Shown here: positions 41,686 through 42,917 of the stretch, piece by piece
Layout: each line of letters opens with the position of its first letter
Position numbering within the stretch: position 1 is the stretch's first letter
Assembly: GCA_017656165.1 (NCBI GenBank)
Contig: JACDOL010000007.1
Span: 1-53,171, forward strand
Origin: Desulfotomaculum sp.
Lineage (GTDB): Bacteria > Bacillota > Desulfotomaculia > Desulfotomaculales > Desulfohalotomaculaceae
Direction of reading: 5' to 3'
DNA length: 53,171 nucleotides
Translations under genes and position numbers: made by a program
Notes under the pieces: model-generated
The model's input: the letters and a program-made list of their open reading frames with translations, nothing else
What the model was told of the DNA's origin: nothing
The model's database searches: none

Positions 41686-42093
41686 TTAGTCCTTTATATT
41701 GTGGTCTCTTATTTTATACCCTTCTTTTTCACCCTGCTCTTCCACAGGAACAATTAGGCTTTCCCCTGGCTTTACCAGCCCCAGTTTCTCCCTGGCCACA
41801 TGCTCAATATATTCCTTTGATTCCATAGATTTAAGCATTTTATGCAGTTCCTCGTTGCGGTTTTGCAGAATTTCAATTTCCTGCTCAAGTTCTGTTACAC
41901 TGTGCCTCATGGCATTTAATTTATTTATTTCACCGCTTAAGGAAATAACCAAATACCCAAATACCAATGCAAATACCAGGATGGGGAATTTTACCCTCAG
42001 CCTGCTCTTCCGCCGTGGTGCTGCTGTATATTTTATTTTTCCAGCTTTATTAAATGCAGTGGTTTTTCTCCGCCCATTATTAGAAGAAATCAA
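41686..42093 (-). CDS. divIC: Septum formation initiator DivIC/FtsB
   Basis: A bitopic division protein acting with DivIB/FtsQ and FtsL. The 135 residues have a basic cytoplasmic N terminus (1-34), one transmembrane helix (about 35-53), and then a coiled coil (about 55-92) ending in the family's YIEHVAREKLGLVKPGE block. The start codon is TTG; AGGGGG lies 7 bases upstream, inside the preceding gene's stop region. It begins 2 bases after the small HTH gene. Confidence 0.92.
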   Translation of the reverse strand: MISSNNGRRKTTAFNKAGKIKYTAAPRRKSRLRVKFPILVFALVFGYLVISLSGEINKLNAMRHSVTELEQEIEILQNRNEELHKMLKSMESKEYIEHVAREKLGLVKPGESLIVPVEEQGEKEGYKIRDHNIKD

Positions 42094-42095
42094 TA

Positions 42096-42326
42096 TTATA
42101 CCCCCTCATCTTCATCCGGCCCAAACAAACTTAAAGAATCCCCTGGTATAACAATTACAACTTGATATCCTTTGCTTTTGGCACGGTTGTAAAGGGTGGC
42201 CACAGTACTGGCAGAAAGGTTAAGTCTTTTAGCAATTCGCTCATTGCTGTAACCCATTTCTTTTAACGTAACCACCTGTTTTTCCCTAAAACTTAATTTT
42301 TCAGCACCTCTAATTTCAATTTGCAT
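42096..42326 (-). CDS. Small HTH DNA-binding protein (sigma-70 region 4 / LuxR-like)
   Basis: 76 residues, mostly one helix-turn-helix: LSFREKQVVTLKEMGYSNERIAKRLNLSASTVATLYNRAK (about 11-50) resembles sigma region 4 or the LuxR C-terminal domain. A short acidic tail follows (GPDEDEGV). AGGAG lies 8 bases before the ATG. It is cotranscribed with divIC (2-base gap), so it may be a regulator linked to division or sporulation (inference). I do not recognise a named orthologue. The DnaA-box cluster lies just upstream. Confidence 0.8.
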   Translation of the reverse strand: MQIEIRGAEKLSFREKQVVTLKEMGYSNERIAKRLNLSASTVATLYNRAKSKGYQVVIVIPGDSLSLFGPDEDEGV

Positions 42327-42376
42327 TTAAGCCGCTCCTGTCAGTGACTGTCGAATTATACACTGTTGTCCACTAG

Positions 42377-42569
42377 TTATCCACCGGTTTATCCACAGAT
42401 TGTGTATAAACTTATTACATTTTATGTACATCATTACTACATAAATAATTAAATTCCTTCCTAGCAGTTTATAATTTAAAAAATTATCCACAACGGCACT
42501 CGAACCGTAAAGTTTATCCACAATAAAAAATCGTTTTCTCCGGTAAATCACTGCTAGTTGTTATCCACA
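42377..42569. promoter_or_regulatory. DnaA-box cluster
   Basis: Four perfect TTATCCACA boxes on the plus strand (42389, 42484, 42514, 42561), TTATCCACC at 42377 and TTATACACA on the minus strand at 42409-42401, all within 193 bp. A given 9-mer is expected about once per 130 kb counting both strands. The region is AT-rich, non-coding, and precedes the HTH-divIC genes. No dnaA or dnaN is present, so it looks like a DnaA-titration or control site rather than oriC. Confidence 0.75.
42525..42569 (-). repeat. Interspersed intergenic repeat, copy 7, overlapping a DnaA box
   Basis: ATCGTTTTCTCCGGTAAAT then AGTTGTTATCCACA. It joins the left block shared with copies 1, 5 and 6 to the right block shared with copy 2, which is how I linked them into one family. 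Confidence 0.55.
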
Positions 42570-42599
42570 AATCTAAAAAAGCATAATTGTCTATGCAAT

Positions 42600-42625
42600 A
42601 AAAAATAAAAAACCCCTTACAGGGG
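42600..42625 (-). terminator. Terminator after the holin-like gene
   Basis: On the minus strand CCCCT and AGGGG pair around GTA, followed by TTTTTTATTTTTT. It closes the yabP-yabQ-holin-like operon. Confidence 0.8.
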
Positions 42626-42638
42626 CAGCAGGACATTT

Positions 42639-42917
42639 TTATTGTCTTCTTCTCTGCAAGCTGTTTTTTACAGTTGAGTGGCTACCTATGGCCAATACAG
42701 CCAAAACCAAACCGGCCAAAAAGCCGTTCAAGCTTCTTTCAATAAGGACAAAACCTAATATCATACCTATTAAAATCAAAACCAAAGGCAGGTAATTGTT
42801 TTTTATTACAGAGGTAGTTTTTGCTACCCAACCCAGGGACCAGATGACAATCATTATCTCAAGCCACGGATCATCCATTGAAGCTTTAATCAGCTCAATA
42901 ATGCTGGTATCAGGCAC
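42639..42917 (-). CDS. Holin-like small membrane protein
   Basis: 92 residues. The layout (short N-terminal stretch, a first hydrophobic helix about 18-35, polar KTTSVIKNNY, a tightly packed helix pair about 43-78, and a basic C-terminal tail) is that of phage holins of the clostridial/A118 type. It starts with GTG behind GGGGTG. It is the last gene of yabP-yabQ and has no endolysin or phage genes nearby, so it is a domesticated or misnamed holin-like protein. A role in sporulation is suggested only by the operon. Confidence 0.65.
   Translation of the reverse strand: MPDTSIIELIKASMDDPWLEIMIVIWSLGWVAKTTSVIKNNYLPLVLILIGMILGFVLIERSLNGFLAGLVLAVLAIGSHSTVKNSLQRRRQ

Follow-up and report, generated by a model that had tools for sequence, protein, structure and literature searches.

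Why should DnaA boxes gather densely outside the replication origin, in front of a small helix-turn-helix (HTH) gene and the division gene divIC? We use "the window" for the whole 53,171-nucleotide stretch of Desulfotomaculum sp. DNA that was analyzed. The first-pass annotation of the window had marked six boxes at 42377-42569 (four TTATCCACA, TTATCCACC and TTATACACA) and read them as a cluster that titrates DnaA. All six were recovered: TTATCCACA occurs four times on the plus strand (42389-42397, 42484-42492, 42514-42522 and 42561-42569), TTATACACA lies at 42401-42409 on the minus strand, and TTATCCACC lies at 42377-42385. In the window, we also counted seven copies of TTATNCACA against 2.65 expected from shuffling. 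The genome is a 2.29 Mb draft in 169 contigs, and the genome-wide count that the annotation had called for gave 39 copies of TTATCCACA (roughly one in every 59 kb) and 20 of a reversed control pattern. The earlier expectation of roughly one perfect box per 130 kb was about twofold too low, which does not alter the verdict on the cluster. Four of the 39 perfect boxes fall inside 181 bp, far denser than chance (approximate probability 1.6e-7; 0 cases in 400,000 simulations), and in the genome-wide count perfect boxes group together only once more, at C9:40316-40657, beside tsaD.

The boxes lie in the gap at 42327-42638, which, as had been claimed, precedes the small HTH gene and divIC. On one side, the gap is flanked by a holin-like gene that follows yabP-yabQ (Pfam YabP 5e-22, YabQ 8e-22), and on the other by the 76-aa HTH gene, divIC, ppx, and two genes that we take from their sequence to be spoIIE and tilS. 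The surrounding features are as follows:

42639..42917, minus strand: preceding gene, a 92-aa holin-like membrane protein (Pfam Phage_holin_5_2, 1e-7)
42613..42625, minus strand: terminator-like hairpin of the preceding gene, CCCCTGTAAGGGG then a T-run, seen in the sequence
42335..42339, minus strand: putative ribosome-binding site AGGAG of the HTH gene, seen in the sequence
42096..42326, minus strand: HTH gene, 76 aa, a sigma-70 region 4/LuxR-type single helix-turn-helix protein (Pfam Sigma70_r4_2 5e-9, GerE 6e-8)
41686..42093, minus strand: divIC (septum formation initiator), immediately following the HTH gene (Pfam DivIC 1e-16)

Among the relatives compared, only two of the same genus have the 92-aa holin-like gene between yabQ and the cluster.

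Neither dnaA nor dnaN adjoins the cluster, as would be expected of an oriC. The dnaA gene of the draft genome is on another short contig and has its own upstream boxes, TTATTCACA and TTATACACA. In relatives that carry both genes on one contig, dnaA is 64-187 kb from the HTH gene, which supports the origin proximity of the region; judged by the relatives, the earlier suggestion of an origin-proximal neighborhood holds. The gap resembles the DnaA-box clusters and DnaA-regulated promoters of B. subtilis in having several TTATCCACA boxes that are dense, outside oriC and origin-proximal.

The core of the cluster has a further order. Read in the sense of the HTH gene, it comprises eight units, including phased units at 42356-42374 and 42411-42441 that lie beyond the six boxes marked earlier:

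42356..42441, minus strand: phased array, proposed operator, with an 11-bp period and a footprint kept in five family members
42433-42441, minus strand: unit 1, TGTAGTAAT
42422-42430, minus strand: unit 2, TGTACATAA
42411-42419, minus strand: unit 3, TGTAATAAG
42400-42408, minus strand: unit 4, TATACACAA
42389-42397, minus strand: unit 5, TGTGGATAA
42377-42385, minus strand: unit 6, GGTGGATAA
42366-42374, minus strand: unit 7, AGTGGACAA
42356-42364, minus strand: unit 8, AGTGTATAA

The units at 42433, 42422, 42411, 42400 and 42389 follow each other at exact 11-bp steps; those at 42377, 42366 and 42356 come after steps of 12, 11 and 10 bp, so these last three are off the 11-bp register, and they have lost the leading T. 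Of the four perfect boxes, a single one belongs to the array. An alignment of the five-member family gave a sharp footprint that begins at a GMAGGATTT motif and ends with the last boxes; the sequence on either side is poorly conserved. Judged from its sequence, the core at 42356-42441 is an instance of an operator-like array that is conserved in front of the HTH gene. DnaA-trio elements were considered and rejected, since the period is 11 bp rather than 3 bp, although TAG/TAA occurs in TGTAGTAA.

We then compared about 80 relatives (80 HTH loci from many Firmicutes lineages), with 70 non-redundant promoters for the period and promoter counts; the relatives share ancestry, so these counts and the p-values below overstate independence. 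In the 70 promoters, 200 pairs of TGT were spaced at 11 bp against 4.9 expected (z=85), compared with 2 pairs at 10 bp and 9 at 12 bp, and TGT recurred at 22, 33 and 44 bp as well. The unit consensus is W-TGT-V-S-W-N-A, in which TGT is 98-99% fixed, a figure that is partly built in because the units were located through their TGT. At least three units were present within 170 bp of 75 of the 80 HTH genes. At four inspected loci (L080, L086, L092 and L125), the array is further upstream of the HTH gene; at L086, a short tandem satellite (ccttggggtaa/cttgggataag) occupies about the last 150 bp before the HTH start, between the array and the start codon. A role of the leader array at the RNA level is unlikely, given the helical period and given that leaders lengthened by insertions keep the array far from the start codon.

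The array tracks the HTH gene. When 112 relatives were searched genome-wide with an exact three-unit, 11-bp pattern, the matches were mostly just upstream of the HTH gene, and the same pattern at a 10-bp period, used as a negative control, gave almost no matches. The HTH gene is followed by divIC at 76 of the 80 loci, and no array precedes divIC in three genomes that lack the HTH gene. One metagenome contig, L146, has the HTH gene with a seven-unit array and no divIC behind it. There (L146:2500-2764), the genes behind the HTH gene are PhoU/Pit-like and on the opposite strand, a natural split of the array from divIC.

The array also starts at the -10 element of a conserved promoter motif, which in the window reads:

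42453..42458, minus strand: sigma-H-type -35 element AGGAAT (family pattern AGGAWW-N12-RNNGAAW)
42434..42440, minus strand: sigma-H-type -10 element GTAGTAA, 12 bp after the -35 element, with one mismatch to RNNGAAW and overlapping the first array unit

The AGGAWW..RNNGAA pattern was found in 41 of the 70 non-redundant promoters against 2.3 expected from shuffling, mostly with a spacer of 12. It matches the sigma-H consensus, RNAGGAWWW/RNNGAATWW (PMC8510167). The family thus has both elements with about 12 bp between the core motifs, and the promoter ahead of the HTH gene is, as predicted from these motifs, of the sigma-H type, the window copy having one mismatch at -10. From the -10 element, the array extends over the predicted transcription start into the leader.

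The HTH protein itself is well conserved, with 80% column identity on average among 13 orthologues and more than 350 loci in GTDB genomes. No NCBIfam equivalog scored above its cut-off. AlphaFold predicted an HTH of three helices with two short flanking strands (pLDDT 82); in a structure comparison, the nearest matches to this model were NarL/GerE DNA-binding domains, none of them below E 0.001. One may speculate that the terminal strands aid head-to-tail contacts. Among open-licence papers, we found nothing that ties divIC to DnaA boxes or to the HTH protein.

As in a helix-phased operator, same-direction repeats lie about one helical turn apart and are linked to a single-domain HTH gene. We consider it somewhat probable that the cluster core is the operator of the neighboring 76-aa HTH protein, which would repress its own gene by binding head to tail. 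Since the core is a strict 11-bp array that follows the HTH gene, it is more likely to be the control switch of that gene, possibly shared with DnaA, than a DnaA sponge. HTH monomers would bind TTGT-type units every 11 bp, head to tail and one per helical turn, and their cooperative binding would extend from the -10 element into the leader; because the array starts at -10 and covers the transcription start and the leader, a filled array would block the sigma-H-type promoter. Cooperative autorepression would then set the level of the HTH protein, and that of DivIC as well if the two genes are co-transcribed, and DnaA may bind some of the units too. The array is conserved, exact in period and linked, like the promoter motif, to the HTH gene; we infer the HTH protein to be the binder, with a repressive effect, and divIC to belong to the same transcript. 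The resemblance to DnaA boxes would arise because the unit family TTGTnnAYAA overlaps the DnaA box (TTATCCACA; TGTGGATAA on the other strand).

The main rival, less probable but a real contender, is control by DnaA, which would bind the array and regulate the HTH-divIC operon, thereby coupling the state of replication initiation to a division gene, comparable to its repression or activation of promoters in B. subtilis. DnaA is a transcription factor at several B. subtilis promoters (PMC4447404), the cluster contains perfect consensus boxes and is origin-proximal in relatives, and 9-bp boxes separated by 2 bp would likewise give an 11-bp step. Linkage of the array to the HTH gene is equally expected here, as DnaA could instead regulate that gene; the absence of the array where the HTH gene is absent was nevertheless counted against DnaA control. 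The composition of the units also speaks against it: 162 of 288 (56%) are not DnaA-like when at most one mismatch is allowed, and in 16 of 68 promoters the array lacks DnaA-like units altogether. We also observed a strong orientation bias in the HTH promoters: box-like units in the forward direction were TTGTNCACA (TTGT) 46 times and TTATNCACA (TTAT) 0 times, whereas those in the reverse direction were TTAT 52 times and TTGT 13 times (p=1.4e-19). No such bias was present at the dnaA promoters of the relatives (p=1.0). The bias fits a putative head-to-tail unit in which the TTGT half is fixed and the second half is variable. Boxes of the conserved array, as distinct from the three isolated boxes described below, therefore do not follow DnaA specificity irrespective of strand, as those of a DnaA-box cluster would. 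Spacing differs too, with a strict peak at 11 bp in the HTH promoters versus 12 bp at dnaA promoters. However, the DnaA-like units are concentrated at the 3' end of the array, forward then reverse, and the 3' half, whose boxes are 12 bp apart in the window family, shares the '+ 12 - 12 -' layout of the dnaA promoters of the same genomes; this resemblance keeps DnaA control a serious rival. In the dnaA upstream regions L188-L214, an element of the form '+ box, 12 bp, - box, 12 bp, - box' is common in the order and is often followed by TTTGTTGAT.

DnaA control also draws on perfect boxes gained in the genus outside the array:

42484..42492, plus strand: isolated perfect TTATCCACA box (TGTGGATAA in the HTH sense), 95 bp upstream of the perfect box of the array, with a G002 box at equal distance
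42514..42522, plus strand: isolated perfect TTATCCACA box, another 30 bp upstream (29 bp in G002)
42561..42569, plus strand: isolated perfect TTATCCACA box, with no positional counterpart found in relatives

Counterparts of two of these boxes occur in G002, and G001 and G004 have one isolated box each, all in the same orientation; none was found in G003. As far as this comparison of sequences goes, the three isolated boxes (42484, 42514 and 42561) are genus-level additions, and they could be true DnaA boxes.

A broader proposal, which we regard as improbable, is that a conserved clostridial HTH protein recognizes sequences overlapping the DnaA box. It and DnaA would then use common sites at a sigma-H promoter before divIC, and perhaps also at oriC, which would link replication initiation, sporulation entry and septum formation in several Firmicutes classes. 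Also improbable is a mixed switch, in which DnaA would take the 3' units and the isolated boxes while the TGTAGTNAA units at the 5' end go to the HTH protein, the two competing or cooperating at one promoter. In its favor are the positional gradient of unit types and, in the window genus, additional perfect boxes that lie beyond the array and share one orientation, but all units share one register and a fixed TGT, suggesting a single reader.

The cluster is real, non-random, conserved and located in the HTH-divIC promoter region; the titration reading of the first-pass annotation fared less well. Although box density and the origin-proximal position in relatives speak for a simple titration cluster of the B. 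subtilis type, unlinked to the adjacent genes, we consider it very unlikely, as conservation sets in abruptly at the -35 element and tracks the HTH promoter, the isolated boxes that would titrate best are lineage-specific, and a better candidate for the role lies at tsaD.

At that gene (gcp is the tsaD orthologue), or at a comFC-like gene, a tandem element composed of TGTGGATAATGTGGATAA then TGTTAATAA or similar is found in many relatives, including those that lack the HTH gene; across the order, it is often CTGTGGATAATGTGGATAAGTCTGTTAATAACC. In the draft genome, a tandem DnaA-box element with spacings of 9 then 12 bp lies just downstream of tsaD (L004:4317-4345 = G000:C9:40316-40345). In B. 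subtilis, a strong DnaA-binding region with 10 sites (Kd 0.15 uM) lies downstream of gcp (PMC4447404). We suggest that the tsaD- and comFC-adjacent elements are better candidates for DnaA clusters outside oriC.

Several known systems are comparable in part. The low-affinity DnaA sites of E. coli oriC are separated by 2-bp gaps. They are closely spaced and fill progressively and cooperatively (PMC4451416); unlike in those arrays, no dnaA adjoins the array described here, and many of its units lack CACA. Compared with B. subtilis DnaA-box clusters, the array is an 11-bp directional TGT array of mostly non-DnaA units that tracks an HTH gene. Apl of phage 186 and related recombination directionality factors bind direct repeats 10-11 bp apart with high cooperativity and repress the promoters that these overlap (PMC7498355). 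The HTH protein is likewise a small DNA-binding protein with repeats about one turn apart overlapping a promoter, its binding here being proposed; unlike Apl, a phage excisionase, it is a chromosomal sigma-region-4/NarL-like HTH protein encoded before divIC. BldC of Streptomyces, with 68 aa, forms cooperative multimers on direct repeats (PMC5859096) and is similar in its very small size and its direct repeats, again with binding proposed for our protein. In contrast to BldC, which is MerR-like and controls developmental entry, the HTH protein has the exact array essentially only at its own gene.

For these genomes, a cluster of TTATCCACA should not be called a DnaA cluster from its box count alone. 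Overall, our analyses point to a highly conserved, previously uncharacterized pair of a proposed regulator and its operator before a division gene, found in Desulfotomaculum-group bacteria, Moorella, Carboxydothermus, Thermincola, Symbiobacteriaceae and others, whose code would be TTGT repeated at 11-bp intervals under a sigma-H-type promoter.
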